Positions 35,413-51,098 of a stretch of 64,000 nt of DNA are shown here, piece by piece. The translations under genes and the position numbers were made by a program. Origin of the DNA: Gammaproteobacteria bacterium (GTDB lineage: Bacteria > Pseudomonadota > Gammaproteobacteria > Eutrophobiales > Eutrophobiaceae). The notes under the pieces were generated by a model. That model was not told the DNA's origin, did no database searches, and saw only the letters and a list, made by a program, of their open reading frames with translations. Position 1 is the stretch's first letter; every line of letters begins with the position of its first letter. Where the stretch lies: contig JACPSH010000046.1 in assembly GCA_016193395.1 (NCBI GenBank), positions 1 to 64,000 of the forward strand, read 5' to 3'.

Positions 35413-35464
35413 CCGCTGTCAGCAGGCTGTTGAAAGAGCCTTTTCAACAGCCTGCTGACAGCGG
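35413..35464. repeat. Perfect 23-bp-arm palindrome (CAACAGCCTGCTGACAG family)
   Basis: CCGCTGTCAGCAGGCTGTTG plus three A at 35413-35435 is exactly complementary to 35442-35464 with a six-base loop. A single TTTTTCAACATCTTGTTAG half-like sequence follows at 35482-35500. It starts two bases after the lhgO stop, so it may end transcription, but there is no T-run. It resembles the palindrome at 36943-36994 in core sequence. Confidence 0.75.
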
Positions 35465-36224: not shown

Positions 36225-36266
36225 TTGACCCAGATCAAAACGGAACCGTCACGCGTGGAGTATAAG
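36225..36266 (+). promoter_or_regulatory. FNR/ANR-type box with class-II spaced minus-10 upstream of hsp20
   Basis: TTGACCCAGATCAA at 36225-36238 fits TTGAY-N4-ATCAA. TATAAG at 36261-36266 follows 29.5 bases from the box centre. With a start site near 36273 the box is centred at about -41.5, the class II activation position. Confidence 0.6.
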
Positions 36267-36307
36267 GGGGTCAAGGCAATATGAATGCCGGCTGGAGGTA
36301 CTCGAAT

Positions 36308-36850
36308 ATGGCTGAAACTGCAACAAAACTCCCCGTGAAAACCCTGGAAAAGAAGGCTGAAGAGGCGTCGAAAGCCGAGGCGCGGCAGCCCATTGACTTG
36401 CTTCGGCGGGAAGTGGATCGACTGTTCGACGACTTCGGCAGCGGTTTCTGGCGCTGGCCGTTCCGCCGCTCCCTGCTCGAGTTCGAGCCGGTCTGGCGGA
36501 CGGAGCTGTCGTTTGGGACCGTCCCGGCCGTGGATATCGTCGAGAAGGACAAGGAGTACGAGATCAGCGCGGAACTGCCCGGGATGGAGCCGGGCAACAT
36601 CGAGATCAACCTCGTCAATGGCGGCCTGACGATCAAGGGAGAGAAGAAGGAGGAAAAGGAGGAGAAAAAGAAGGACTACTATCTTTCCGAGCGCCGCTAC
36701 GGCTCATTTGAACGCAGTTTCTGTGTGCCGGAAGGCGTGGACACGGACAGGATCGACGCGAGTTTCAAAAAGGGCGTGCTCAGGGTGACGCTGCCCAAGA
36801 CGCCCGCGGCGCAGAAGCCGGAAAAGAAGATCAGCGTCAAAGGAGACTGA
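36308..36850 (+). CDS. Small heat-shock protein, Hsp20/alpha-crystallin family
   Basis: 180 residues from ATG 36308, which has GGAGG ten bases upstream (36293-36297); an in-frame ATG at 36281 lacks such a site. The alpha-crystallin domain spans about residues 75-170: PAVDIVEKDKEYEISAELPGMEPGNIEINLVNGGLTIKGEKK and the end strand GVLRVTLPKTP. A Lys/Glu-rich loop (KKEEKEEKKKDYY) is typical. It forms oligomers that hold unfolded proteins. No heat-shock sigma-32 promoter is apparent; an FNR-like promoter lies upstream. Confidence 0.95.
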   Translation: MAETATKLPVKTLEKKAEEASKAEARQPIDLLRREVDRLFDDFGSGFWRWPFRRSLLEFEPVWRTELSFGTVPAVDIVEKDKEYEISAELPGMEPGNIEINLVNGGLTIKGEKKEEKEEKKKDYYLSERRYGSFERSFCVPEGVDTDRIDASFKKGVLRVTLPKTPAAQKPEKKISVKGD

Positions 36851-36942
36851 AGAGCCTCCATTTGCGGGCCATCCGCCCGCTGTTCGTCCAGCGTGGCCGG
36901 GGTTGGGACATCACGGTCCGCCCCGGTCCCGTTGCGACCGTT

Positions 36943-36994
36943 CTAACAGGTTGATGCAAAAGTCCGTCCATGGACTTTTGCATCAACCTGTTAG
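36943..36994. repeat. Perfect 23-bp-arm palindrome (CTAACAGGTTGATGC family)
   Basis: CTAACAGGTTGATGC followed by AAAAGTCC at 36943-36965 is exactly complementary to 36972-36994, with GTCCAT as the loop. It lies between hsp20 and the next gene, 93 bases after the hsp20 stop. The TTTTGCATCAACCTGTTAG end is like the TTTTTCAACATCTTGTTAG sequence at 35482. Confidence 0.75.
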
Positions 36995-37072
36995 GGCCCG
37001 ACGCCCCCGCTCCGCCAACCGCCGTCAATTTCGTATACTGTCCCCGGATATGCCGCGCACCGGGGGAGCCGC

Positions 37073-38470
37073 ATGGCCGAGAGCGAATCCTCTTCAAACA
37101 CTCCGCGGGAGCCCGCAACTTCAGGCTGGCGCGAGTTGTATCTGAAGGAGGACTGGTGGGCGGTCTGGCTCGGGCTCGCCATCATCCTCGCGGCCTGGTA
37201 CTTCTTCGCGCAGGGTTCCTCGATCAAGTGGCTGGCCGTCATGCCGGCGAAGTGGTCGGCGCTGCCGCAGCTTGCTGCGCATCTCGCCGTCGAGGTTCCC
37301 CGCTACCTCGCGCAGTTCGTGTTCTGGCTCGCGGCCTTCGCGATCAGCGTAAAGGTCATGGGCCACAGGCTGCGCGAATTCATCCCGGCCTTCATCTTCG
37401 TATACCTGCTCGCGCTCGCCGTCAGTTGCATCGGCGCGTGGGAATTCGCCTCGCGCTACAATCTCGAGCCGCCGCTGCTCGCGCTTGTGTTCGGCATGCT
37501 GATCTCGAACTTCACCAGCCTGCCGCGCTGGATGGATGCGGGCTTCCGCGTCGAGTACTACATCAAGACCGGCATCGTGCTGCTCGGCGCGACCCTGCCG
37601 CTGACGCTGATCGCCTGGGCCGGTCCCATCGCCATCGCGCAGGCCACGATTGTTTCCGTCATCACCTTCCTCGTGATCTACTGGACCGGCAAGCGGCTCG
37701 GCCTGGATCGCAGGCTGTGCGCGACCATGGGGGCGGGCGGGGCGGTGTGCGGCGTGTCCGCCGCGATAGCCATCTCCGCCGCGGTAGGCGCGAAGAAGGA
37801 GCACGCGCCGATCGCCATCACGCTGGTCATCCTCTGGGCCATCGTCATGATCTTCTTCCTGCCGCTCTGTTCCCGCGCACTCGGATTGCACGCCGGTGTG
37901 GCCGGGGCCTGGATCGGCACCTCGGAATTCGCGGACGCGGCCGGGCTTGCCGCGGCGCAGACCTACGGCAACCTGGCGGACGCCCTGCCGGACATCGAGG
38001 GGACCTCCGAGCAGGCGGTGCAGGCGTTCACGTTGATGAAGGTCGTCGGCCGCGACGTCTGGATCGGGATCTGGGCGTTCATTCTTTCCATCATCGCGAC
38101 GACGCGGTGGGAAGAGGGCGGCGGTACCGCGAAGCCGCAGGCGGGTCAGATCTGGCAGCGCTTCCCGAAATTCGTGATCGGATTCGCGGTCGCCTCCGCG
38201 CTGGTGACCGCGATCGCCGCCGGCTACAGCATGCAGGACTTCGACCAGACCGTGACGCCCGCCCTCGTCGCCCCGGTCAAGACACTGCGCACCTGGGCGT
38301 TCATCTTCTGCTTCATCAGCATCGGGCTCACGACGCGCTTCCGTGAACTGGCCGCGGTGGGGAGACAACCTTTCCTGGCGTTTACGACGGGCGTTGCTGT
38401 GAACGTCGTGATGGGTTACATCCTGTCGGTTTTCGTCTTCGGAACTTATTGGGCGAGTCTGGGCGATTAA
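37073..38470 (+). CDS. YeiH-family putative sulfate/anion exporter
   Basis: 465 residues with about eleven membrane helices. ALVFGMLISNF...LPRWMDAGFRVEYYIKTGIVLLGATLPLTL, MGAGGAVCGVSAAIAISAA and the late FIFCFISIGLTTRFRELA are the conserved blocks of the UPF0324/YeiH family. This is the longer version, with an N-terminal extension of about 100 residues (WWAVWLGLAIILAAWYFFAQG). Transport activity in the family is poorly proven. It is a single gene. Confidence 0.88.
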   Translation: MAESESSSNTPREPATSGWRELYLKEDWWAVWLGLAIILAAWYFFAQGSSIKWLAVMPAKWSALPQLAAHLAVEVPRYLAQFVFWLAAFAISVKVMGHRLREFIPAFIFVYLLALAVSCIGAWEFASRYNLEPPLLALVFGMLISNFTSLPRWMDAGFRVEYYIKTGIVLLGATLPLTLIAWAGPIAIAQATIVSVITFLVIYWTGKRLGLDRRLCATMGAGGAVCGVSAAIAISAAVGAKKEHAPIAITLVILWAIVMIFFLPLCSRALGLHAGVAGAWIGTSEFADAAGLAAAQTYGNLADALPDIEGTSEQAVQAFTLMKVVGRDVWIGIWAFILSIIATTRWEEGGGTAKPQAGQIWQRFPKFVIGFAVASALVTAIAAGYSMQDFDQTVTPALVAPVKTLRTWAFIFCFISIGLTTRFRELAAVGRQPFLAFTTGVAVNVVMGYILSVFVFGTYWASLGD

Positions 38471-38568
38471 CCGCATTGCGGGCCGCGCCTGGACTGCTCC
38501 ACCCCCTGATTCACGGATTTCCGCCGGGCCGGATCCTTTCGGTCATCCAGCCGACTCGCGTATGCGCG

Positions 38569-38610
38569 TTGACCCAGATCACAACGAGATTGAAATCGAG
38601 TAAATACAAT
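38569..38610 (+). promoter_or_regulatory. FNR/ANR-type box with class-II spaced minus-10 upstream of fadJ-like gene
   Basis: TTGACCCAGATCAC at 38569-38582 shares 13 of 14 bases with the box before hsp20. TACAAT at 38605-38610 begins 29.5 bases from the box centre, exactly as at hsp20. A start site near 38617 would leave a 38-base leader to the ATG at 38655. Confidence 0.6.
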
Positions 38611-38654
38611 CACTCTCGACTGCGCTTATTCATCCAACCAGCAGGAATACGTCC

Positions 38655-40748
38655 ATGCCTGATGTTGTCAGCTACATACGTGAAGAAAACATCGCTGTAA
38701 TCATGATTGATAATCCGCCGGTAAACGCCATGTCGCATGCCGTCAGGAAAGGTGTTTGGGAAGCCATGGATAAGCTGAATGCAGATGAAGGGGCCGATGC
38801 GGCGGTACTGATATGCGCCGGCCGGACCTTCATTGCCGGTGCGGATATCACTGAATTTGACAAGCCGCCGGAGGACCCTCGGTTACCGGACCTGATTGCC
38901 AGAATGGAGCAATCTCCCAAATTGCTCGTCGCGGCTATGCACGGCACGGCATTGGGCGGCGGTCTGGAAACGGCTTTGGGATGTCACTATCGATGCGCCC
39001 TCGCAACGGCACAAGTCGGTTTGCCGGAGGTTAACCTGGGTTTGCTGCCCGGCGCAGGCGGGACCCAGCGATTGCCCCGCCTTGCGGGCGTCGAGACGGC
39101 GCTGGAGTGGATCCTGTCCGGCAGGCATGTCAGCGCGGCGGAGGCAGCTAGACATGGCGTGATCGACGAGATCGTCGCGGGCGATCTGCGGGAAGACGCG
39201 GTTGCCTATGCGAAGAGACTGCTGCAGTCGGGCGCGCCCGTGCGACGCGTCCGCGAGATGAAGATTGACCGGACGGGGATCAGCGAAGATTTCTTCGCCG
39301 GCTATCGCCCGCAATTGGCAAAGCAGCATCGTGGTTTTTATTCTCCTCCCCGCATCCTGGACTGCGTCCAGGCCGCCGTTGAGCTGCCGTTCGACGAGGC
39401 GCTGCGGCTCGAGCGGATGCTGTTTGACGAGTGCAAGGCTTCGCCGCAATCCAGGGCGCAACGGGCCTTGTTTTTTGCCGAACGCACCATCAGCAAGATT
39501 CCTGATGTTCCCAAGGACACCCCGACTCGGGACATAAACAAGGTCGCTATAATCGGCGCCGGCACCATGGGAGGCGGTATAGCCATGTGTTTTGCCAATG
39601 TCGGGATGCCCGTCGAATTACTTGAACTTCAGCAGGATGCGCTTGATCGCGGGATCGGGACCATACGCAGAAATTATGAAGCGACCGTAAAAAGGGGCCG
39701 TCTGACCGGTGAGCAAGTGCAGGAACGCATGGCTTTGATCAAGGGCGCTCTCGATTATTCAGATATCGCCGACGCCGATCTGGTCATCGAGGCGGTATTT
39801 GAGAATATGGACATCAAGAAAGAGGTGTTCTCCAAACTTGATGGTTTGTGCAAGCAGGGCGCAATCATGGCAAGCAATACGTCAACTTTGGACGTGAACG
39901 AGATCGCGGCCGTGACGGCGCGTCCGGAAGACGTAATTGGTCTGCATTTCTTCGCCCCGGCGAATGTCATGCGCCTGCTCGAGGTCGTGCGGGGCGCGAA
40001 GACCGCCAGGGACGTCATCGCATCGGCGATGGCGCTGGGCAAACGGTTGAAGAAGAACAGCGTGCTGGTCGGCGTCTGCTTCGGCTTTGTGGGCAACCGC
40101 ATGTTTTTCCCATACCTGCGCGAGGCGCAGAGGATGATGCTGGAAGGGGCCGCGCCCGAACGGATCGACAAAGTCGCCTACGACTGGGGCATGGCGATGG
40201 GTCCTCATGCCGTGGCGGACCTGTCCGGGCTCGATGTGCTCTACAAGGTCATCGAGGAATGGGATTACAAACCGGACGATCCGACCTTTTTCCGCGTGAC
40301 GAAGCTCCTTCATGACATGGGGAGGTATGGCCAGAAGACCGGGGCGGGAATATTCAAGTATGAAGGCAGGACGCCGATGCCCGATCCGCAAGTGGCGGAA
40401 GCAGTCGGCAGAGAAGCGGCGAAGCTCGGGATCGAACAGCGTGACATCCGTGACGACGAGATCATCGAGCGGCTGTTCTATTCCATGATCAACGAAGGCG
40501 CGCTGATCCTGGAGGAAGGCATTGCCCTCCGGGCGGGGGACATCGACGTCGTCTGGACCAGCGGCTATGGCATGCCTCGGTATCGCGGCGGCCCGATGAC
40601 CTATGCCGACATGACAGGTCTGAAGAACGTCCGCGCCGCCATGTTGAAATACCGCGACCGGTATGGCGATCGATACTGGCGGCCCGCCCCATTGCTGGAA
40701 AGGCTGGCACGCGAAGGAAACACCTTTTCCGGCTGGAGGGCGGCCTAG
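38655..40748 (+). CDS. Bifunctional enoyl-CoA hydratase / 3-hydroxyacyl-CoA dehydrogenase (FadJ/FadB-like)
   Basis: 697 residues. The N-terminal crotonase domain (1-190) has GRTFIAGADITEF for the oxyanion hole and two catalytic Glu in GGGLETALGCHYR and GLPEVNLGLLPGAGGTQRLPR. The dehydrogenase domain starts near 296 with AIIGAGTMGGGIAMCFA and has the catalytic His in GLHFFAPANVMRLLEVV. The C-terminal half is complete. It does two steps of beta-oxidation. The stop shares the CTAG with the stop of the convergent acyl-CoA dehydrogenase gene. Confidence 0.95.
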   Translation: MPDVVSYIREENIAVIMIDNPPVNAMSHAVRKGVWEAMDKLNADEGADAAVLICAGRTFIAGADITEFDKPPEDPRLPDLIARMEQSPKLLVAAMHGTALGGGLETALGCHYRCALATAQVGLPEVNLGLLPGAGGTQRLPRLAGVETALEWILSGRHVSAAEAARHGVIDEIVAGDLREDAVAYAKRLLQSGAPVRRVREMKIDRTGISEDFFAGYRPQLAKQHRGFYSPPRILDCVQAAVELPFDEALRLERMLFDECKASPQSRAQRALFFAERTISKIPDVPKDTPTRDINKVAIIGAGTMGGGIAMCFANVGMPVELLELQQDALDRGIGTIRRNYEATVKRGRLTGEQVQERMALIKGALDYSDIADADLVIEAVFENMDIKKEVFSKLDGLCKQGAIMASNTSTLDVNEIAAVTARPEDVIGLHFFAPANVMRLLEVVRGAKTARDVIASAMALGKRLKKNSVLVGVCFGFVGNRMFFPYLREAQRMMLEGAAPERIDKVAYDWGMAMGPHAVADLSGLDVLYKVIEEWDYKPDDPTFFRVTKLLHDMGRYGQKTGAGIFKYEGRTPMPDPQVAEAVGREAAKLGIEQRDIRDDEIIERLFYSMINEGALILEEGIALRAGDIDVVWTSGYGMPRYRGGPMTYADMTGLKNVRAAMLKYRDRYGDRYWRPAPLLERLAREGNTFSGWRAA

Positions 40749-42535
40749 AACTGCCCGGCCGCCATGGTCAGGCAGGTATCATCGAGCTTTTGCAGCAGGC
40801 TCATCTGCGCGCGTGCCCTGGGTAGTTCATAGACGAAGAAATAGCGGCAGGCCTTGAGCTTGCCGCGATAGAACTCCGGTTCCTGATCGGGCGAACTCGC
40901 CAGGTGCCGGGAGGCGCAGTGCGCCTGTTTCAGCCACATCCAGGCTATGACGATATGCCCCACCATATCCAGGTAGATCGTCGCATTGGCCAGCGAGCGT
41001 TCGAGATCCCCGCACCCGATCAGCACGCGTGTCGTCACTTCCAGTTCCCCGACGGCGGCCGCGAGATCGGACGCATATTCATGCAATGATTCGATGCTCG
41101 CCGCCGCATCGATGTCGGCCCGGATCAACCGGCACAAGGCCGTGAAACAGGCGCCCTCGGCGATCCGCACCTTCCGTCCCAGCAGGTCCAGGCCGTGGAT
41201 GCCGTGCGTGCCCTCGTGGATCGGATTCAAGCGGTTGTCCCGGTACAGGCGTTCCACCGGGTAATCGCGCGCATAGCCGTATCCGCCCAGCACCTGGATG
41301 GCATGTTTGTTGGCTTCCAGGCAGAACTCCGAGGGCCAGGACTTCGCGATCGGCGTCAGGATATCGAGCAGCAAGGCGATTTCCCTCCGTCGGGCCGGAT
41401 CGCCGGCGGTCTTCTGTTCATCCACCAGGCGGGCGCAATACAGCAGCAAGGCCAGCGCGCCCTCGACGTAGGACTTCTGCGTGAGCAGCAGGCGCTTGAT
41501 GTCGGCATGCTCGATGATCGGCACCGGGGGCGATGCCGGATCCTTGTCCCGCATACGGCGGCCCTGGGGGCGGCCCTTCGCGTATTCGAGGGCGTACAGA
41601 TAGCCGGCACAGCCCGCAGACGCCGCTCCCATGCCGACGGCGATACGCGCCTCATTCATCATGTGAAACATGGTTTGCAGGCCCTTGTGCCGCTCCCCGA
41701 CCAGGGTGCCGTGGCATTCGCCGCTCTCGCCGAAGTTGAGCAGCGTGTTGACGGTGCCGCGGTAACCCATTTTGTGGTTCAGCCCGGCCAGCGCGATGTT
41801 GTTCGGACCGCCAATCGCGCCATCCGGCCCGACCCGCAATTTGGGCACGATAAAAAGAGAAATACCTTTCACGCCGGCCGGCCCGCCGGGGATCTTCGCC
41901 AGCACCATGTGGACGATGTTCTCGCAGAGCTCGTGCTCGCCGCCGGAGATCCACATCTTCGTGCCGGAGATGAGGTAATGGCCCGCGCCGGCCGGTGTCG
42001 CCTTCGTGCGGATATCGGCCAGCGAAGATCCGGCCTGCGGCTCGGAGAGGCACATCGTGCCGAAGAAGCGGCCATCCAGCAGCGGCGGGAGGAACAGCGC
42101 CTTCTGTTCCGGTGAGCCATACGCGCACAGCAAATTGGCGACGCCGGTGGTGAGCAGCGGATAGGCCGCGATACTGATGTTGGCGCCATAGAACATCGCG
42201 CCGGCCGCCTGCGCCACCACGCAGGGCAACTGCAGGCCGCCGGCCTCGTAATCGAAGCTTGCGGCTGGAAATCCGGCCTGCGAATAGGCATCCAGCGCCG
42301 TCTTGACCTGCGGGATGATGCTGACCCCGCGGCCGTCGAAGACAGGCTCATTGGCATCCAGCTCGGCGGCGCAGGCCTGGAATTGCTCCACCGCGATCTT
42401 CTCCGCCGTGTCGAGCACGGCATCGACGACCGCGCGATCGTGCTTCGCGTAGCGCGGCTGCGCCAGCAACCCTTCCAGGTCGAGGAATTCGTACAGCAGG
42501 AAATCGAGATCCCTTCGGTTGAATGTCGCAGTCAT
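40745..42535 (-). CDS. Acyl-CoA dehydrogenase, long form (DmdC-like, C-terminal extension)
   Basis: 596 residues, about 200 more than classical enzymes, with the extra C-terminal domain of the 3-methylmercaptopropionyl-CoA dehydrogenase-like group. MCLSEPQAGSSLADIRTKA binds flavin, and the base Glu is in NPIHEGTHGIHGLDLLGRK; GGYGYARDYPVERLYRDNR is the flavin-binding helix. It oxidises a CoA thioester to the enoyl-CoA, giving electrons to ETF (etfAB at 29534-31226). It likely acts before the FadJ-like protein. Confidence 0.94.
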   Translation of the reverse strand: MTATFNRRDLDFLLYEFLDLEGLLAQPRYAKHDRAVVDAVLDTAEKIAVEQFQACAAELDANEPVFDGRGVSIIPQVKTALDAYSQAGFPAASFDYEAGGLQLPCVVAQAAGAMFYGANISIAAYPLLTTGVANLLCAYGSPEQKALFLPPLLDGRFFGTMCLSEPQAGSSLADIRTKATPAGAGHYLISGTKMWISGGEHELCENIVHMVLAKIPGGPAGVKGISLFIVPKLRVGPDGAIGGPNNIALAGLNHKMGYRGTVNTLLNFGESGECHGTLVGERHKGLQTMFHMMNEARIAVGMGAASAGCAGYLYALEYAKGRPQGRRMRDKDPASPPVPIIEHADIKRLLLTQKSYVEGALALLLYCARLVDEQKTAGDPARRREIALLLDILTPIAKSWPSEFCLEANKHAIQVLGGYGYARDYPVERLYRDNRLNPIHEGTHGIHGLDLLGRKVRIAEGACFTALCRLIRADIDAAASIESLHEYASDLAAAVGELEVTTRVLIGCGDLERSLANATIYLDMVGHIVIAWMWLKQAHCASRHLASSPDQEPEFYRGKLKACRYFFVYELPRARAQMSLLQKLDDTCLTMAAGQF

Positions 42536-42630
42536 GTGCCGCCGTTCCCGATGAGCGCGCCGCGCGCGTTGACAACGGCTCCGATATTTTCAAGGATCGG
42601 CGCTCATTGCATCCCTTTGCATGAGGGGGG

Positions 42631-42644
42631 TTGATCGTGATCAA
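42631..42644. promoter_or_regulatory. Perfect FNR-type palindrome at the start of the EthD gene
   Basis: TTGATCGTGATCAA is an exact TTGAT-N4-ATCAA palindrome. It lies 96 bases upstream of the acyl-CoA dehydrogenase start and overlaps the GTG start of the EthD gene. It could activate the first or repress the second; coding constraint alone could also explain it. Confidence 0.4.
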
Positions 42645-43308
42645 CGCAGTGACCCTGCTGAAGCGCAAACCCGGCCTGTCGGTCGAAGAGTTCCAGCGTT
42701 ATTGGCGGCACGAACATGCCGGGGTGATCGCGCGCCTGCCGGGGGTCCAGCGCTATGTCCAGTCCCATCCGCTGGATGAAAGTTATGCGGATCGGGAACC
42801 GCTCTACGACGGGTTCGCCGAGCTGTGGGCCCGCGACAGCCAGGCGTTCCGGAATATTGCCGCGAGTGAGGCCTATGCTGCGGTCCAGGCCGATGAAGAG
42901 AAATTTCTCGATCGCAAGGCCAACGCCTTGGTCCTGACCGACGAATACTTCATCAAGCGCGGCACGGTTGCGGCCAATGCCGTCAAGCGCATCAGGTTTT
43001 TCAGCCGCAGACCCGACTTGCCTGTCGAAAAGTTTCAAGCGTACTGGCGCGACGCGTATGGACCACTGATGGTGACATTGCCGTCGCTCGATCGTTACGC
43101 CCAGTATCACGCCCGTCTCGGCGGTTACGCGCACGGCCGGCAGCCCGCCTACGACGGATTCGACATTTCCTGGTTCGAATCCACCGAAGTGCTGCGCGGG
43201 GCCATGGATTCCCCGGTCTGCGCCCGCTGCCACGAGGATGAGAAGGACTTTCTGGCCAACGACGGCGGCCCGGATTTGCTCGCCAGGGAATTCGTGATGC
43301 TCGGCTGA
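42637..43308 (+). CDS. Tandem EthD-domain protein
   Basis: 223 residues from GTG 42637, which has GAGGGGGG six bases upstream; TTG 42631 is the alternative. Two copies of the EthD dimeric-barrel domain are seen: VTLLKRKPGLSVEEFQRYWRHEHAGVIARLPGVQRYVQ and IRFFSRRPDLPVEKFQAYWRDAYGPLMVTLPSLDRYAQYH. In the second copy the usual HGP/EHA His is replaced by Ala-Tyr. Most EthD proteins have one domain and dimerise, so this is an internal dimer. EthD helps degrade ethyl tert-butyl ether in Rhodococcus, but its role is unknown. The domain often appears with catabolic genes. Confidence 0.85.
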   Translation: MINAVTLLKRKPGLSVEEFQRYWRHEHAGVIARLPGVQRYVQSHPLDESYADREPLYDGFAELWARDSQAFRNIAASEAYAAVQADEEKFLDRKANALVLTDEYFIKRGTVAANAVKRIRFFSRRPDLPVEKFQAYWRDAYGPLMVTLPSLDRYAQYHARLGGYAHGRQPAYDGFDISWFESTEVLRGAMDSPVCARCHEDEKDFLANDGGPDLLAREFVMLG

Positions 43309-43345
43309 AGGCGTCTCGCGCAGGTTTCGTAGCCTGCTAGCCCTC

Positions 43346-43359
43346 AAGTTAATTAACTT
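43346..43359. promoter_or_regulatory. AT-rich 14-bp perfect palindrome
   Basis: AAGTTAATTAACTT stands in an otherwise GC-rich 368-base spacer (43309-43676), 38 bases after the EthD stop. It could be an operator for the GntR regulator of the cluster or a weak terminator part. The rest of the spacer holds only the FNR box described separately. Confidence 0.3.
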
Positions 43360-43593
43360 CTCCTGCGCCGGCGATCGGCCCCGGCGACCGTCCTGAATCG
43401 CAAGAGTGGACACCGCAGGCTGGCGCGCGTGCCGCGCTCAGCTCCACAATCAACACAATCTCGTTGAAAAATAAGGCAATTATCGAAACGCCCGGTTGAT
43501 GGAGGCGCGCATTCACCGCCAGCCTCGTCAGCGGCGCTCTTCAGGACGGCCTTCCCGCGCCCAGCGCTTTCGGCGCCATCGCACGTCGATCTC

Positions 43594-43607
43594 TTGATAA
43601 AAATCAA
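43594..43607 (+). promoter_or_regulatory. Perfect FNR/ANR box upstream of the nine-gene catabolic cluster
   Basis: TTGATAAAAATCAA is an exact FNR consensus palindrome, in an AT-rich pocket 70 bases before the nitroreductase ATG. By class II geometry the start site would be near 43642. No good minus-10 is seen at the exact position, so the polymerase contact is less certain than at hsp20 and fadJ. Confidence 0.6.
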
Positions 43608-43676
43608 AAGATTTAATTTTCGCTCTGCAAGCATTTCCGGCAGTGACGTTTCCTGATCAGACAAAAGGGCGGGCGC

Positions 43677-44396
43677 ATGGGCGACATACTCGAGGTCATC
43701 AGCAGCCGCAAGAGCATCCGGCGCTTCAAGACGGATCCGGTCCCGGAGCAGATGATCTACAAGATCCTGGAAGCGGCGCGCTGGGCGCCCACCGGGGAGA
43801 ACTATCAACCGTGGCGGTTCATCGTCGTCAGGAACCAGGAAGCCAGGAACAGGATCGCCGACCTGGCCAAAGTCGGCAGCGGCTCGCGGATGACCGCCTG
43901 GTATTGCCTGGGCCACATGCAGGAGCGGTTCGAAAAAATTGAAGACCCGGTGAAGCGGGCCGAAGTGCTGCGGTTCATGTATTCGGGCGAAGTGTCGGCT
44001 TTCGCCCGCGTGGCGCCGCTCGTAATCGCGGTGCTCGGCAGCCTGCGGATCGGCTCGGTGGACGTCCCTTACGATCTCTCCGCCGCCATCGAGAACATCC
44101 TGCTGGAAGCGCACTCGCTCGGCCTGGGGGGGTGCTGGGTGCACGGCCCGGTGGCCAGTTCCAGGGACGCCGTCAAGTTCAAGAAGATCCTGAATATCCC
44201 CCTCGAAATGAGCGCCTACAAGGTCATCGCCTATGTCGCCATCGGCTGGGCCCTGGAGCAGCGCAGGCACCCGCGGCCCAAGCTGCCGCTCGAAGAACTG
44301 GTCTACTGGGAAGAATACGGCAAGACCACCCGGCCCAAGCTGCCGCTCGATGATCTCGTTTATTACGAAAAGTACGGCGAGAAGGAGAAACGGTAA
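43677..44396 (+). CDS. Nitroreductase-family flavoprotein with duplicated C-terminal segment
   Basis: 239 residues. ISSRKSIRRFKTDPVPEQ, EAARWAPTGENYQPWRFIVV and the C-terminal AYKVIAYVAIGWA are the FMN-binding pattern of nitroreductases. It has a central insertion (residues ~80-110) and an unusual tail where RPKLPLEELVYWEEYGK is followed at once by RPKLPLDDLVYYEKYGE, an in-frame duplication of about 19 residues. Substrate is unknown: quinone, enoyl or aromatic reductions are possible. First gene of a compact operon; the next begins with no gap. Confidence 0.88.
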   Translation: MGDILEVISSRKSIRRFKTDPVPEQMIYKILEAARWAPTGENYQPWRFIVVRNQEARNRIADLAKVGSGSRMTAWYCLGHMQERFEKIEDPVKRAEVLRFMYSGEVSAFARVAPLVIAVLGSLRIGSVDVPYDLSAAIENILLEAHSLGLGGCWVHGPVASSRDAVKFKKILNIPLEMSAYKVIAYVAIGWALEQRRHPRPKLPLEELVYWEEYGKTTRPKLPLDDLVYYEKYGEKEKR

Positions 44397-44924
44397 ATGG
44401 ACAAGATCGCTTACTGCAACGACCTGCTGGCCAGGATGGAGGAGCTCTTCTTCCACGAGCTGTCCGATTGCGCCGGCTGGAAAACCGAGTTCGTCGGCGT
44501 CGATTTCATCCAGTCGAAAAACATCGAAGGCAGGAGCCGCGAGGAAATCATCGAGAGCTGCATCCGTGAAATCGCGCGGGCCGGACTGGCCAGGGAAGCG
44601 TCCTATGCGATCGCCGGCAGGGACATCCTGCTTTGCCTGAAAGTGAAGGGCTGTGTCCACCTCGGCAAGGAAGCCAGGCTCAGGGAACGGGGGATCAAGG
44701 TCTACAACTGCCTGATCGCCAACATGATCAACGATCAGCTCATAGAAAAACTGGGTTACGAGACCACCTATGTCGCGAGCATCGACGTGGACGAGAGAGA
44801 CGGACTGTGCCGGTTGAAGATCGCCATTTATGAAACACCGGAGAAGGTGGGTTGCGTCAGCAACTGGTCCGAGGAATGGCGGCGGATCGACGAGAACAGG
44901 CTGTGGGTCACCATAACAAATTGA
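44397..44924 (+). CDS. Unknown cysteine-rich protein of the catabolic cluster
   Basis: 175 residues that I do not recognise. Eight cysteines are visible (7, 25, 55, 80, 86, 105, 138, 153); the group Cys80-x5-Cys86-x-His88 and Cys105 in ILLCLKVKGCVHLGKE and VYNCLIANMI could bind a metal or cluster. The predicted mix of alpha and beta looks like a small sensor or ligand-binding fold. It begins at the base after the nitroreductase stop and ends 29 bases before the carboxyltransferase, so it is translated with them. It could be an accessory or redox partner of the nitroreductase. Confidence 0.7.
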   Translation: MDKIAYCNDLLARMEELFFHELSDCAGWKTEFVGVDFIQSKNIEGRSREEIIESCIREIARAGLAREASYAIAGRDILLCLKVKGCVHLGKEARLRERGIKVYNCLIANMINDQLIEKLGYETTYVASIDVDERDGLCRLKIAIYETPEKVGCVSNWSEEWRRIDENRLWVTITN

Positions 44925-44953
44925 GTCGCGCAGCCTGAGAAGGCGGGTCGTTC

Positions 44954-46516
44954 ATGTCATCCGAACAAAGCTGGAAGGAAGCGCTTGCCAGGCGCCGGTC
45001 CGTGGAAACGGAAGCATTGCAGGCGGGTGGGGAGGCGCGACCGGCAAAGCAGGAAGTCGGGCGCAAGTTGTCCGCCCGCGCCCGCATCGTAACTCTCCTC
45101 GATGCCGGAAGTTTCACGGAATTGAACATGCTGGCGGAACACCAGTGCCGAGATTTCGGAATGGAGAAGCGGAAAGTGCCCGGAGACGGCGTCGTCACGG
45201 GGCACGGGAGCATCGGTGGACGCCGGGTCTTCATCTACGCCGAAGACGAGAACGTGCTCGGCGGTTCGACCGGCAGGACCCACGGCGCGAAGATCCAGCA
45301 CGTGCTGCGTCTCGCCCGGGACACGCGGGTTCCGGTCATCTGCCTGAACGCCTCGGCAGGCGCGCGCATCCAGGAAGGCATGGACAATGTCTATGGCATC
45401 ACCGGCATGTTTCATCAGAACGTGCTGAATTCCGGTGTCGTGCCGCAGATCGCGGCTGTCATGGGAACCTGCAGCGGGGGCGCAGCCTACAGCTCGGCCC
45501 TGTGCGATTTCCTCATCCAGGTCGAGAACGCACCCCTGTTCATCACCGGTCCGGCGGTGGCGAGGGAAATCACCGGCGAAGAGGTTTCCACCGAGGATTT
45601 GGGAGGCGCCGGTCTCCACGGCCAGTTCTCGGGTGTTGCTCATCTCACCGCCAGGGATGACCGGGAATGTCTCGATCTCGTCCGGCGCCTGCTCGACTTT
45701 CTGCCGCAGAACAACCGGGAGACGCCGTCAAGGCGCGACTGCCGGGACGCGGCGGACCGGCAGACGGCCGAGCTGCTCGAGATCGTGCCGATCGAAGGAT
45801 CGAAAACTTACGACATGAAGGAGGTCGTTCGCGTTCTGGTCGATGAGGGGGATTTTTTCGAGATCCATCCCGCATTCGCCAGGAACCTCGTGGTCGGGTT
45901 CGCCAGGATGGGCGGGGCGGTCATGGGCATCGTCGCCAACAACCCCCGGCACCTGGACGGCTTCCTGGATGTCGACTCCTCGAACAAGGGCGCGCGGTTC
46001 ATCCGCATCTGCGATGCCTTCAACATCCCGCTGCTGTCCCTGGTGGATTCGCCCGGCTTCCTGCCGGGGCTGCAACAGGAACGCGGCGGCATCATCCGGC
46101 ACGGGGCCAAGCTGCTTTATGCCTGGAGCGAGGCGGCTGTGCCGAAAATCGCGGTTGTCCTCAGGAAGATGCACGGCGGGGCCATCCCGGCCATGGGCGT
46201 CCACGAGATCGGATTCGACCAGGTCTTCGCCTGGCCTTCCGCCGAGATGCAGATCATCGCCGCCGGATCGGCCGTCAAAATCCTCTACCGCAGGGAACTG
46301 GAGAACGCCGGCAACCCCGCCGCGCTCTTCGACGAGAAGGTCAGGGAATACCAGGAAGGTTGTGCATCTCCCTACCACGCCGCTTCGCGTTCGGTAGTGG
46401 ACGCGGTCATCGAACCGGGGGACACGCGGCGGGTGATCGTCTCCGCGCTGCGCATGCTGGAAGGCAAACGGGCGACGCCGCGCGCCGGCCGCAGGCACGG
46501 AAACATCCCGCTGTAG
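44954..46516 (+). CDS. Acyl-CoA carboxylase/decarboxylase carboxyltransferase subunit (PccB/MmdA-like)
   Basis: 520 residues with both crotonase-fold halves. CoA site: GGSTGRTHGAKIQHVL and ASAGARIQEGMDNVYG; biotin side: DSPGFLPGLQQERGGIIRHGAKLLYAWSEA; the end RRHGNIPL is the family tail. The specificity loop is HGGAIPAMGVHEIGFDQVFAWPSAEMQ in place of the GGAY-type sequences of propionyl- or acetyl-CoA carboxylases, so the substrate may differ. No biotin carboxylase, BCCP or membrane decarboxylase gene is near. It lies five bases before the mutase gene. Confidence 0.92.
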   Translation: MSSEQSWKEALARRRSVETEALQAGGEARPAKQEVGRKLSARARIVTLLDAGSFTELNMLAEHQCRDFGMEKRKVPGDGVVTGHGSIGGRRVFIYAEDENVLGGSTGRTHGAKIQHVLRLARDTRVPVICLNASAGARIQEGMDNVYGITGMFHQNVLNSGVVPQIAAVMGTCSGGAAYSSALCDFLIQVENAPLFITGPAVAREITGEEVSTEDLGGAGLHGQFSGVAHLTARDDRECLDLVRRLLDFLPQNNRETPSRRDCRDAADRQTAELLEIVPIEGSKTYDMKEVVRVLVDEGDFFEIHPAFARNLVVGFARMGGAVMGIVANNPRHLDGFLDVDSSNKGARFIRICDAFNIPLLSLVDSPGFLPGLQQERGGIIRHGAKLLYAWSEAAVPKIAVVLRKMHGGAIPAMGVHEIGFDQVFAWPSAEMQIIAAGSAVKILYRRELENAGNPAALFDEKVREYQEGCASPYHAASRSVVDAVIEPGDTRRVIVSALRMLEGKRATPRAGRRHGNIPL

Positions 46517-46521
46517 CAGCC

Positions 46522-48234
46522 ATGTCCTCGGTACGGGAACAGGCGGCATCCGGAAACGACATGAAGGCGATGAACAAGCTGAAGTCGGCCAGCGAGCGCT
46601 GGCAGGACACGATCCTGAAAGACCAACTCGCCCGGGCGCCGGAACTGCGCGATGGCTTCACCACCGAGAGCGGCATCCCGGTCAAGCGACTGTACACGCC
46701 GCTTGACGTGGAGGAGATCGATTACCTTTCCGATATCGGCTTTCCCGGCGAATTCCCCTACACGCGCGGCGTCTATCCGACCATGTATCGCGGCCGCCTG
46801 TGGACCATGCGCATGTATGCCGGTTTCGGCACGGCGGAGGATACCAATCGCCGCTTCCGTTACCTCCTGCAACAGGGGATGCCCGGCCTGTCGATGGCCT
46901 TCGACCTGCCGACGCAGCTCGGCTATGACTCCGATGATCCGCTGGCGCAGGGCAGCGTCGGCCGCGTCGGCGTCGCCGTGGATACGCTCGCGGACATGGA
47001 GATCATCTTCAGGGGGATACCGCTGGATCAGGTCTCCACCTCGATGACGATCAACGCCCCGGCCACGGTCCTTCTCGCCATGTACATCGCGCTCGGCGAG
47101 AAGCAGGGCGTCAAGCCTGAACAACTGACAGGCACCACGCAGAACGACATATTGAAGGAATTCATCGCCAGGGGAACCTACATCTTCCCGCCCGGCCCCA
47201 GCATGAAACTGGCCATGGATGTGGTGGAGTACTGTTTCGAGCGCCTGCCGAAATGGAACACGATGAGCATCACCGGTTACCACATCCGCGAAGCCGGCGC
47301 CGATGCCGTGCAGGAGCTGGCGTTTACGCTCGCCAATGCCATCGCCTATATCGAAGCGGCGCGGAGCAGGGGGCTGGATGTCGATGATTTCGCCGCGCGG
47401 CTTTCATACAGTCTCGGTTGTCATCGGGACCTGTTTGAAGAAGTAGCGAAGTTCCGGGCCTCCCGCCGGATCTTTGCCCGGATCATGAAGGACCGTTTCC
47501 AGGCGAAGGACCCAGGCAGTTATCTGTTCAGAACCTTCAGCGGTTCCTGCGGCTCGACGCTGGTCGCGCAGCAGCCGCTCAACAACACGGTCCGGATCAC
47601 GATGCATGCCCTCATGGGGATCCTGGGGGGACATCAGGCCATCCATACCGCGAGCTGGGACGAAGGCCATGCGCTCCCCGCTGAAGACGCTTCCAAGTTG
47701 TCGTTGCGCACGCAGCAGATCCTCGCCCACGAATCCGGACTGTGTAACACCATCGATCCCCTGGCCGGTTCCTACTACGTGGAGTCATTGACGGACGAGA
47801 TCGAAAAGAGGGTCACGGCGTACCTGCGGAAGATAGACCAGCACGGCGGCATGCTCAAAGCCATCGAAAGCGGCTATATCGCCGGGGAAATACAGCAATC
47901 AAGCCTGAAATCGCAACAGGCGATCGAATCCGGGGAAAGGGTAATCGTCGGCGTAAACAAATACGCCGAAGAAGAGGAAGACCATGGGGAGCAGTACCTG
48001 CATATCGATCAGGGCATAGATGAACAGCAAAGCCGGAAACTGGCGGAGATCAGGGCGCGTCGGGATTCCGCCGCCGTCCGGAGGACGCTGCGGGCGCTGG
48101 AAGGGGCGATCGATCGCAACGACAACCTCATGCCCGCCATGATCGAAGCGGTCAGATGCTACGCGACCATAGGGGAGATCTGCGCCGTCATGCGTAACCG
48201 GTGGGGAGAGTTCAGTGATGCGTCGATTCCGTGA
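46522..48234 (+). CDS. B12-dependent acyl-CoA mutase large subunit (methylmalonyl-CoA mutase-like)
   Basis: 570 residues from ATG 46522. The TIM-barrel substrate domain is complete; the cobalamin domain is a separate gene. Residues known from Propionibacterium methylmalonyl-CoA mutase are conserved with a constant offset of ten: Tyr99 (Tyr89) in RMYAGFGTAEDTN, Gln207 (Gln197) in GTTQNDI, Arg217 (Arg207) in FIARGTYIFPP and His254 (His244) in TGYHIREAGA. Tyr and Arg hold the substrate carboxylate, and isobutyryl- and 2-hydroxyisobutyryl-CoA mutases have other residues there. A carboxylated acyl-CoA (methylmalonyl/succinyl or substituted form) is therefore expected. Confidence 0.94.
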   Translation: MSSVREQAASGNDMKAMNKLKSASERWQDTILKDQLARAPELRDGFTTESGIPVKRLYTPLDVEEIDYLSDIGFPGEFPYTRGVYPTMYRGRLWTMRMYAGFGTAEDTNRRFRYLLQQGMPGLSMAFDLPTQLGYDSDDPLAQGSVGRVGVAVDTLADMEIIFRGIPLDQVSTSMTINAPATVLLAMYIALGEKQGVKPEQLTGTTQNDILKEFIARGTYIFPPGPSMKLAMDVVEYCFERLPKWNTMSITGYHIREAGADAVQELAFTLANAIAYIEAARSRGLDVDDFAARLSYSLGCHRDLFEEVAKFRASRRIFARIMKDRFQAKDPGSYLFRTFSGSCGSTLVAQQPLNNTVRITMHALMGILGGHQAIHTASWDEGHALPAEDASKLSLRTQQILAHESGLCNTIDPLAGSYYVESLTDEIEKRVTAYLRKIDQHGGMLKAIESGYIAGEIQQSSLKSQQAIESGERVIVGVNKYAEEEEDHGEQYLHIDQGIDEQQSRKLAEIRARRDSAAVRRTLRALEGAIDRNDNLMPAMIEAVRCYATIGEICAVMRNRWGEFSDASIP

Positions 48235-48255
48235 CCATCCGGGAGCCGCCGCGTG

Positions 48256-48684
48256 ATGGCAGAGAACCGGACACGCGTCCTCATTTCAAAACTGGGTCTG
48301 GACGGACATGACCGCGGCGCGAAACTCGTCGCCCATGCCCTGAAACAGGAGGGGATGGACGTGATCTACCTTGGCATCCGGCACACCATTGGCCAGGTCG
48401 TCGATATGGCGATACGCGAAAAGGCGGAGTACGTCGGCCTGAGTTTTCTCGCCGGCGATCACATGACCTGGGTCCCGAAAGTAATCCGTGAATTCAGGGA
48501 ACAGCAGGCGGACCACATCAAGCTCATCATCGGCGGGATCATTGCGAAGGAGCAGATCCCGGAGCTGAAATCCATGGGCGTCGAGCAGGTGTTCCTGCCG
48601 GGCACGCCGCTCAAGGAAATCGCGAACTACATCAAGGCGCATGCAACGGCCGCGGAAGCACGGGAGAACGGGAATGATCATTGA
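48256..48684 (+). CDS. B12-binding small subunit of acyl-CoA mutase
   Basis: 142 residues. The base-off cobalamin motif is DGHDRGAK with His18 in GLDGHDRG (D-x-H-x2-G), followed by the LSFLAGDH loop and GG in LIIGGII. This is the separate B12 domain of heteromeric mutases; it pairs with the large subunit 21 bases upstream. GTG at 48253 is an equal start. No MeaB-type G-protein chaperone or adenosyltransferase gene is present in the window. Its 3' end overlaps the amidohydrolase gene by 11 bases. Confidence 0.95.
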   Translation: MAENRTRVLISKLGLDGHDRGAKLVAHALKQEGMDVIYLGIRHTIGQVVDMAIREKAEYVGLSFLAGDHMTWVPKVIREFREQQADHIKLIIGGIIAKEQIPELKSMGVEQVFLPGTPLKEIANYIKAHATAAEARENGNDH

Positions 48685-49585
48685 CGCGCACGTTCATCTA
48701 ACCCGGCCCGGATACGTCAAGAAGAAGTTCCTGTGCGGCAACTCGCGCATGGCGGCCTCGCTCTATAACCGGGTGCACAAGACCAGCATCACGCCGGACG
48801 ATTACATCGAAATGGTGAAACACCGGATCGACCCCACCGGGGAGAAACTGATCGCGGAAATGGATGACGCCGGAGTCGACAAGAGCGTCATTTTCGGCGT
48901 CGACTGGGCCTACGGCGTCACCGGCGAGCCGAAGGTGAGCAACCGCGAGCAGAACCGGTATCTCGCCGACTTCGCGAAAGCGAATCCAGGGCGGTTCATA
49001 CCTCTCGCCGCGCTGGATCCGCGGCGGCCGGACGTCATCGAGCAGGCGACCGAGGCCATCGATGAGTGGGGGATGAAGGGATTCAAGCTGATGCCCTCCG
49101 CCGGCTTCAAGCCCAACGATCCCGTGTGTTTTCCGTTTTACGAGAAGTGCGCCGCGTGGGGCGTCCCCATCATGTTTCACAGCGGCGGGCTGGAATTCAA
49201 CTGGGAATACAGTTCGCCGAATCTGATCGCCTCGGCCGCCGAGGAATTTCCCGACGTGAAGATGATCATGGCCCACGCCGGGCTCGAGTCCTGGGAACAA
49301 TGCCGGCTCGCCTGCGCCGCGCTGCCGAACGTCTACATGGACATTTCCATCCGCCAGTTCGATTACCAGATCAACCGGCAGAAGTTCTACCAGTGGCTTC
49401 GCGACATGATCGACTGGACCGGCCCCTGGAAAATCCTGTTCGCCACCGATGCGCCTCTGCCGACCTTCTACCTGCCGACCAGGGAATGGGTGGAGGCCAT
49501 CCGCTATCCGAAAACCGACATCAAGTTCGACCGTGAAGAACTGGAGATCATCCTGGGGCGCGCGGCGGAAGCGGTCTTTCAATGA
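48674..49585 (+). CDS. Amidohydrolase_2 family protein (ACMSD/decarboxylase-like)
   Basis: 303 residues from ATG 48674 (MIIDAHVHLTRPG), overlapping the small mutase subunit. Metal ligands are visible: H-x-H in DAHVHL, His in PIMFHSGGLEFNW, His in KMIMAHAGLESW and Asp in ILFATDAPL. This is the PF04909 class, which includes aminocarboxymuconate-semialdehyde and resorcylate decarboxylases and hydrolases. It can decarboxylate or hydrolyse a cyclic or aromatic intermediate; the choice is open. Fits a catabolic role between CoA ligase and mutase. Confidence 0.88.
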   Translation: MIIDAHVHLTRPGYVKKKFLCGNSRMAASLYNRVHKTSITPDDYIEMVKHRIDPTGEKLIAEMDDAGVDKSVIFGVDWAYGVTGEPKVSNREQNRYLADFAKANPGRFIPLAALDPRRPDVIEQATEAIDEWGMKGFKLMPSAGFKPNDPVCFPFYEKCAAWGVPIMFHSGGLEFNWEYSSPNLIASAAEEFPDVKMIMAHAGLESWEQCRLACAALPNVYMDISIRQFDYQINRQKFYQWLRDMIDWTGPWKILFATDAPLPTFYLPTREWVEAIRYPKTDIKFDREELEIILGRAAEAVFQ

Positions 49586-49627
49586 GACCTGCCACTTGAT
49601 TCAACGGGCTGCTGAGACCGAACGAAG

Positions 49628-50401
49628 ATGACGGGATTGCCTTACTTCGATCTGACCGGCCGGGTCGCGATTGTCACCGGCGGGGCGACCGGCATCGGCA
49701 GGGGCATCGCCGAGGGGCTGGCGGAAGCGGGGGCGGATATCGTCATAGGCTCGAGACGCCTGGAAAAGTGCGCTGAGGCTTGCCGTGAAATCGGGAGACG
49801 AACCGGCGTGCAAACCTTGCCGTTGGCTGTTGATGTAAAGAACGCGGATGGCGCGGAAAAATTCGTTGACGACATAGTCAAGGCAATGGGGCACATCGAC
49901 ATTCTTGTCAATAACGCCGGGGTCATTGATGAAAAACCCATCCTCGAAATGGAAGAAGCGGATTGGGATCTCATGCTGGATACAAATCTCAAGGGGGTCT
50001 TCACGCTTTCCAGGGCGGTCGTTCGGAGAATGGTCGAGCGGAACAAGGGCGGAAAGATCATCAACGTCGCTTCCATCGCCGGGATCATCGCCTGGCCGAA
50101 AATGGCCGCGTACTGCGCAAGCAAGGGAGGCTGCATCCAGTTGACGAAGGTCATGGCGCTCGAATGGGCCCGCTACGACATCCAGGCAAACGCGATCCTG
50201 CCGGGATATTTCCTGACCCCCATGAGTGCGGACTTTGTCGGCAGCGATGAAGGTCAGCAGGCCGTCAAAAGCCATATACCCATGCGCAGAGCCGCCCGGA
50301 TCGACGAGATCAAGGGCGTGGCCGTCTTGCTCGCTTCGCAGGGATCGAGCTTCATCACCGGCGCTTCGTTCGCCGTCGATGGCGGCCAGGCATGCAGATA
50401 G
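49628..50401 (+). CDS. SDR-family NAD(P)-dependent oxidoreductase
   Basis: 257 residues, classical SDR. TGGATGIGRGIAEGL is the cofactor motif, NNAG lies in ILVNNAGVIDEKP, catalytic Ser is in INVASIAGI, and Tyr/Lys in YCASKGG. The C-terminal GASFAVDGGQA is usual. GSRRLEKC after strand 2 points to NADPH use (Arg-Arg after the acidic place). It likely oxidises or reduces a hydroxy or keto CoA ester in the pathway. It lies 42 bases after the amidohydrolase and 22 before the GntR gene. Confidence 0.93.
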   Translation: MTGLPYFDLTGRVAIVTGGATGIGRGIAEGLAEAGADIVIGSRRLEKCAEACREIGRRTGVQTLPLAVDVKNADGAEKFVDDIVKAMGHIDILVNNAGVIDEKPILEMEEADWDLMLDTNLKGVFTLSRAVVRRMVERNKGGKIINVASIAGIIAWPKMAAYCASKGGCIQLTKVMALEWARYDIQANAILPGYFLTPMSADFVGSDEGQQAVKSHIPMRRAARIDEIKGVAVLLASQGSSFITGASFAVDGGQACR

Positions 50402-50423
50402 ACGAACACGGACGACTGAATAA

Positions 50424-51098
50424 ATGGAACAAAGGAGAATGCTGATCGAGGAGGCCTACCGGAAGATCAAGGACATGATCTTCAGCCAGGAGCTCGCGCC
50501 CGGCCAGAAACTGACCTACGGCGACCTCGGCAGGACACTCGACATGTCGCCCACGCCGGTCATCAACGCGCTGCATCGCCTGGAGCACGAAGGCTTCGTG
50601 GTGTCCGTCCCGTTCAAGGGGTTCAACGTCAAGAAGATCGGGCTGCAGGAAGCCTGGGATCTCTTCGGGGTCCGCGAGGCCCTGGAAACCTACATGGTGG
50701 AGCAGGTGATACTGGTCGCGGAAGCTGGGGAGATGCCGCTGCTGGAGGAAAAATTCGCCATGCATGCTGCATACCGGCCAAAGGTGTACGACCGCAAGAG
50801 ATTTCACCTGGACAGCGAATTCCATCTGCAACTCGCCTCCATGAGCAGGAACTGGGTGCTCGCCCGGCAATTGTCCGCGACGCTCGAGCATTTCTACATA
50901 CGCTTCAGGTTCGAGACGATATCGCTGGACAGGCTGCAAAGCTCGGTCGAGGAACACCGGCAGATCATCGACCGGATTAAGAGAAAGGATATCAACGGCA
51001 GCCGCGAGGCCATGCGCAACCATATCCAGAATGCCAGGAATCACATCATACAAAGTCTCAGCGACGAACCGATCCTGGAACGGTCGTCGACGCCATGA
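50424..51098 (+). CDS. GntR-family transcriptional regulator, FadR/FCD subfamily
   Basis: 224 residues. The winged helix is EEAYRKIKDMIFSQELAPGQKLTYGDLGRTLDMSPTPVINALHRLEHEGFVV, and the FCD effector domain follows with LFGVREALETYMVE, FHLDSEFHLQLA and EEHRQIIDRIKRKD, which carry the metal-binding Asp/His residues. Such regulators sense carboxylic acids or CoA esters and repress the cluster they sit in. It overlaps the CoA ligase by four bases. A likely target is the spacer 43309-43676. Confidence 0.94.
   Translation: MEQRRMLIEEAYRKIKDMIFSQELAPGQKLTYGDLGRTLDMSPTPVINALHRLEHEGFVVSVPFKGFNVKKIGLQEAWDLFGVREALETYMVEQVILVAEAGEMPLLEEKFAMHAAYRPKVYDRKRFHLDSEFHLQLASMSRNWVLARQLSATLEHFYIRFRFETISLDRLQSSVEEHRQIIDRIKRKDINGSREAMRNHIQNARNHIIQSLSDEPILERSSTP

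Follow-up and report, generated by a model that had tools for sequence, protein, structure and literature searches.

The closest described system is rlv_1399 of Rhizobium leguminosarum UPM791, a small heat-shock protein (sHSP) gene with boxes at -87.5 and -143.5, whose microaerobic induction of about 50-fold is FnrN-dependent and whose induction at 1% oxygen requires FnrN (PMC11784457). In Azoarcus sp. CIB, the bzd PN promoter of anaerobic benzoyl-CoA catabolism is served by AcpR, an activator of the FNR superfamily at -41.5 (PMC6678401). Low-oxygen and anaerobic targets also make up the ANR regulon of Pseudomonas, with the operator TTGAT-N4-ATCAA; the main text describing that regulon contains no fad, fatty acid, beta-oxidation or Hsp terms and thus discusses neither hsp20 nor fadJ as a member (PMC6588701). 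Here, the same operator was analysed in positions 1 to 64,000 of contig JACPSH010000046.1 from an uncultured gammaproteobacterium (this whole 64-kb stretch is called the window), where boxes of this type stand before an hsp20 gene, a fadJ-like gene and a nine-gene catabolic operon. Taken as a whole, the boxes are best explained as operators of the single FNR/ANR protein of the genome, an explanation that we consider very likely.

The hsp20 gene of the window resembles rlv_1399, which falls into the same group of the sHSP tree, has a similar N-terminal motif (MAxxATKL) and carries an upstream TTGA-N6-TCAA box. Unlike Rhizobium, in which two boxes are found, the window has one box with a textbook class II -10 hexamer, and the regulator, an FNR/ANR-type protein whose N-terminus carries a cysteine cluster, is encoded in a metagenome-assembled genome with denitrification genes. 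Similar to bzd PN, a perfect box (C55:39334) precedes a ligase/had/oah/dch cluster in the genome of the window; however, the genes of the present finding are hsp20 and fadJ, and PN also carries the BzdR repressor.

Boxes were scored with the pattern TTGAYNNNNRTCAA, the operator consensus being TTGAY-N4-RTCAA. In the window (63% GC), three perfect boxes were found, at 36225-36238, 42631-42644 and 43594-43607, against 0.12 expected, and none of 100 shuffles reached three; the fadJ box at 38569-38582 has one mismatch. A first-pass annotation of this DNA had described boxes before hsp20, fadJ and the catabolic operon in numbers far above chance, and both the sites and their excess were confirmed, while an additional perfect box at 42631-42644, the fourth site in the stretch, had been overlooked. 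The same annotation had reported -10 hexamers at the class II position, exactly 29.5 bases from the centre of the box, and measuring to the first base of the hexamer gave this distance for hsp20 (36261-36231.5) and fadJ (38605-38575.5). The repeated geometry that it proposed held for these two genes but not for the operon. The two promoters and their genes are composed as follows.

36225..36238, plus strand: FNR/ANR box TTGACCCAGATCAA of the hsp20 promoter, a perfect match centred at 36231.5
36261..36266, plus strand: -10 hexamer TATAAG of the hsp20 promoter, taken directly from the sequence, with the box at -41.5 (class II)
36281..36850, plus strand: hsp20, a small heat-shock protein with a long N-terminal extension (PF00011, E 2.3e-27)
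38569..38582, plus strand: FNR-like box TTGACCCAGATCAC of the fadJ promoter, with one mismatch; its right half is also the CRP half site TCACA
38605..38610, plus strand: -10 hexamer TACAAT of the fadJ promoter at class II spacing (score 7.7, p 0.0005)
38655..40748, plus strand: fadJ-like fused enoyl-CoA hydratase/3-hydroxyacyl-CoA dehydrogenase, 697 amino acids (PF00378, PF02737, PF00725)

The first-pass annotation stood or fell with a homologue of FNR, ANR or DNR, and one FNR/ANR-type protein was found above its NCBIfam cut-off. The HTH_Crp_2 family search of the genome (96.65% complete) returned two proteins only, one FNR and one CRP, the latter with 322 bits against a cut-off of 266. The FNR/ANR protein, encoded at C55:51904-52728, reached 259 bits with the NCBIfam Fnr model (cut-off 228) and aligned nearly full length to solved FNR structures. 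The protein begins with the cysteine cluster ISCQKCRLSELC, and its three N-terminal cysteines and one internal cysteine correspond to those of [4Fe-4S] FNR, while the recognition helix reads ETVSR, of the FNR-type E..SR. Judged by these features, the protein is a true FNR/ANR-type regulator with a CRP/FNR fold, and its [4Fe-4S] cluster is putative, predicted from the ligand cysteines. A second reader of the DNR or NnrR type was rejected, as the search gave only FNR and CRP; with a single FNR among the two proteins, the boxes have one obvious reader.

Genome-wide sites were counted by pattern searches, using the reversed (backward-read) motif as the control. In the 2.7 Mb genome, the motif occurs perfectly 21 times and its reversed form twice; when up to one mismatch was allowed, the counts were 255 and 71. 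The class II composite, a box followed by 22 free bases and then TANNNT, with up to one mismatch allowed, occurred 14 times against none for the reversed motif, and the promoters of hsp20 and fadJ were both among the 14. The -10 hexamers at offsets 35/36 were also scored for the fadJ box and, on both strands, for every perfect box, using a matrix of approximate textbook frequencies supplied by the analyst. Over the listed boxes, fadJ ranked second (7.7) and hsp20 fifth (6.0, background p 0.0016), the remaining top-five scores belonging to the sides of an outer-membrane-protein-like open reading frame, a usp gene and a cytochrome c gene.

Perfect boxes were located close upstream of genes for a nirS-like cytochrome cd1, a B12-binding protein, a universal stress protein (Usp), a class II ribonucleotide reductase, a CcoI-like P-type ATPase, a molybdopterin oxidoreductase and a cytochrome c. 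The box at C55:39334 (L018:3335) lies between the cytochrome c gene, which has GATAAT at the class II offset, and the divergent ligase/had/oah/dch cluster. In this cluster, the ligase is followed by 6-hydroxycyclohexenecarbonyl-CoA dehydrogenase, ring-opening hydrolase and dienoyl-CoA hydratase; these three exceed their NCBIfam cut-offs, and on these family assignments the cluster is the anaerobic benzoyl-CoA pathway. With denitrification and benzoyl-CoA genes preceded by boxes, the organism would appear, as far as genes rather than growth can indicate, to be a denitrifier that breaks down aromatic compounds anaerobically and has an FNR/ANR regulon of the ordinary kind. Near the nirS-like gene, three perfect boxes fall within 240 bases (G000 C60:56426, 56481 and 56650; L022), between it and the divergent gene of the B12-binding protein.

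That the hsp20 box is genuine is almost certain, since many other bacteria have this site, at the same spacing, before the hsp20 gene. Together with a published homologue that was tested experimentally (PMC11784457), this recurrence across genera strongly supports low-oxygen control of the gene. Orthologues with usable upstream DNA were searched from -300 to +60; the sets were picked by bit score and the gene starts read off alignments, which may misplace some of the boxes by a few codons. A perfect box was present in 26 of the 37 close orthologues and in 5 of 39 distant sHSPs (Fisher p 4e-7), counts that include related species and are not independent, and 30 of the 37 had a box with at most one mismatch. 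When the -10 score was averaged over 29 box-bearing promoters (query included; offsets 14 to 69; the perfect box nearest the start being used), a sharp peak appeared at offsets 35/36, and in this single analysis it persisted when the hsp20 query was left out. On the sHSP tree, the box label was clustered, requiring 13 changes against 24.3 in shuffles, with none of 500 shuffles as low. One group of 41 rows (support 94/83) contained 30 perfect-box rows; this group, which holds most box-bearing sHSPs, spans Alpha- and Betaproteobacteria as well as the family of the window. It includes RLV_RS11965 of R. leguminosarum UPM791, whose box centres lie at -87.5 and -143.5 relative to the ATG, and which we identify with the published rlv_1399 by box positions and strain. 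Among 36 same-family relatives searched, only G003 had a full-length homologue of such closeness, which suggests possible horizontal spread. The translation start of the window's hsp20 may be the ATG at 36281 or a later internal ATG that aligns with the start of RLV_1399.

The product of the fadJ-like gene scored below the cut-offs of the FadJ models, with 490 bits against 869 (NF008363) and 415 against 968 (TIGR02440). Accordingly, canonical FadJ identity was rejected, and the protein is a FadJ/FadB-like paralogue. A second fused hydratase/dehydrogenase, 59% identical to it, is encoded at G000 C54:2467-4512. In the relatives, the fadJ neighbourhoods had no common partner, and among those looked at an acyl-CoA dehydrogenase gene follows in G017 only. 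Literature searches on FNR or ANR together with beta-oxidation returned no report of an FNR-controlled fadJ in titles or abstracts.

Before the third target, the nine-gene operon, the first-pass annotation had described a perfect box, and TTGATAAAAATCAA indeed matches the pattern perfectly. The features of this region are the following.

43594..43607, plus strand: perfect box TTGATAAAAATCAA upstream of the operon, centred 76.5 and starting 83 bases before the ATG
43612..43617, plus strand: TTTAAT, the one hexamer close to the operon box that strongly resembles a -10 (score 7.9 at offset 18)
43677..52771, plus strand: nine-gene operon

Several observations weigh against control of all three targets by FNR. 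Of the 37 close hsp20 orthologues, 11 had no perfect box and 7 not even a one-mismatch box. For fadJ, no orthologue of at least 49% identity had a perfect or one-mismatch box in the upstream region to -300, so that conservation of the box at fixed geometry was rejected, and this was the case even though FNR-type proteins were found in 9 of 11 relatives searched. The nearest fadJ orthologue (G015, 74%) has a two-mismatch box, TTGATCTACCGCAA, with GATAAT at exactly offset 36; as the fadJ upstream regions contain about nine two-mismatch sites and such a -10 occurs at about 1.2% of positions, this site is only suggestive. At the operon box, the class II offset (35/36) holds only AAGCAT (score 1.8, p 0.047), and the box is absent in G017. 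Low-oxygen induction, which the first-pass annotation had put forward for all three targets, is therefore well supported for hsp20, probable for fadJ and one of several readings for the operon, where the poor -10 hexamer is combined with partial conservation. For fadJ, promoter anatomy and genome statistics make FNR control probable despite the lack of conservation in most orthologues.

It was also considered whether the boxes are chance palindromes. Some perfect boxes of the genome are intragenic (e.g., C34:100658, C51:15462 and C55:41623), and the box at 42631 overlaps a start codon, as chance sites might; however, the reversed-motif enrichment, the class II composites and the conservation at hsp20, where chance is already contradicted, oppose this origin, which is very improbable and was rejected by the reversed-motif and shuffle controls. 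For hsp20 alone, transcription could be driven by a heat-shock factor of the sigma-32 type with the box being incidental, as the family takes its name from heat shock and the other sHSPs of the relatives are mostly without boxes. The box and its spacing nevertheless recur in the orthologues, the tested homologue RLV_1399 is FnrN-dependent (PMC11784457), and the 30 bases between TTGACC and TATAAG are too many for a -35/-10 pair, by which TTGACC of the box was also rejected as the -35 element; a heat-shock promoter is very improbable as well. At fadJ, CRP is a genuine rival because the right half of the box, TCACA, is a perfect CRP half site, the whole site matching TGTGA-N6-TCACA at 8 of 10 positions. 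cAMP-CRP rather than FNR would then activate from the same -41.5, as at a CRP/Vfr site, and place beta-oxidation under carbon-source control; CRP is encoded in the genome, and CRP-like sites with up to two mismatches are enriched (119 vs 62). Yet 9 of 10 positions of the site agree with FNR, the enrichment of FNR boxes (21 vs 2) and of FNR class II composites (14 vs 0) is far more specific than that of CRP sites, and a weak CRP-like site was found in only one fadJ orthologue (L035, G017). Control of fadJ by CRP instead of FNR is accordingly considered unlikely.

For the operon box, the choice is less one-sided. The hexamer TTTAAT begins 18 bases after the start of the box, far too close for class II, and its spacing would place the box near -24, a repressing position. 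The box may therefore belong to AT-rich promoter DNA at which FNR would repress, or the real reader may be the operon's own GntR regulator, whose gene lies within the operon, or sigma-70 polymerase. The AT-rich stretch ATTTAATT is common to G015 and G017, which do not share the perfect box. Against this, only 0.12 perfect boxes per 64 kb are expected by chance, and the orthologue in G015 retains a one-mismatch box, TTGACTTAAATCAT, adjoining the same AT-rich stretch. That the operon box is something other than an activating FNR site is a serious possibility, held at slightly short of an even chance; an activating FNR role is possible but somewhat less likely than not.

Returning to FNR as the reader of the boxes, the protein would sense low oxygen and form a dimer that binds TTGAY-N4-RTCAA. 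In the hsp20 and fadJ promoters, this dimer would occupy -41.5 relative to the presumed transcription starts, in place of the missing -35 element, and would activate by recruiting RNA polymerase to TATAAG and TACAAT, respectively. The operon box would probably be bound as well, resulting in activation, repression or mere assistance. With its class II FNR promoter, hsp20 would belong to a widespread group of low-oxygen sHSPs. The regulon would extend to denitrification and the anaerobic benzoyl-CoA pathway as well, and fadJ probably joined it as a recruit specific to this lineage. A broader proposal is offered tentatively, as we regard it as rather doubtful: one sHSP group might have carried a class II promoter of the FNR/FixK type through several proteobacterial lineages as a low-oxygen chaperone module, and in this denitrifying aromatic degrader the same switch might newly have taken over a fused beta-oxidation enzyme, so that chaperone supply is tied to the last part of anaerobic aromatic or fatty-acid breakdown.

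By these results, the low-oxygen regulon of an uncultured bacterium that has denitrification genes includes an sHSP and, probably, an enzyme of beta-oxidation. The sequences also show that the Rhizobium sHSP under FnrN control is one member of a larger group, whose promoters have preserved the operator and its spacing to the -10 hexamer but diverged elsewhere. The conserved operator and spacing can serve as a simple marker for low-oxygen chaperones, whose role becomes testable outside nodules.

Genes 1-5 of the operon encode a nitroreductase-fold protein, an unknown protein of 175 amino acids, a carboxyltransferase, a methylmalonyl-CoA-mutase-type large subunit and a B12-binding subunit, and genes 6-9 encode an amidohydrolase-2 protein, an SDR, the GntR regulator and a benzoate-CoA-ligase-like enzyme. 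For the mutase large subunit and its separate B12 subunit (46360-48684), the closest solved structure was 2-hydroxyisobutyryl-CoA mutase (4r3u). Assignment as this enzyme was rejected, as the aligned substrate positions are Tyr/Ala/Arg and not Ile/Asp/Gln. We take the former residues to be those of methylmalonyl-CoA mutase and the latter those of 2-hydroxyisobutyryl-CoA mutase; the residues of the operon mutase thus fit methylmalonyl-CoA mutase. The overlooked box is described by the following line.

42631..42644, no strand assigned: further perfect box TTGATCGTGATCAA, found by pattern match, over the GTG start (42637) of an EthD-domain gene

This box has no usable class II -10 hexamer on either strand (score 0.1 or less) and lies 96 bases upstream of the start of a divergent acyl-CoA dehydrogenase gene. 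On either side of hsp20, near-perfect long inverted repeats were observed at 36943-36994 and 35413-35464 (ctaacaggttgatgcaaaag... and ccgctgtcagcaggctgttgaaa...), which may be a repeated palindromic element or terminators. A similar repeat, gatgcaaaa...ttttgcgtca, follows a box on C60 (L022 near 5030).

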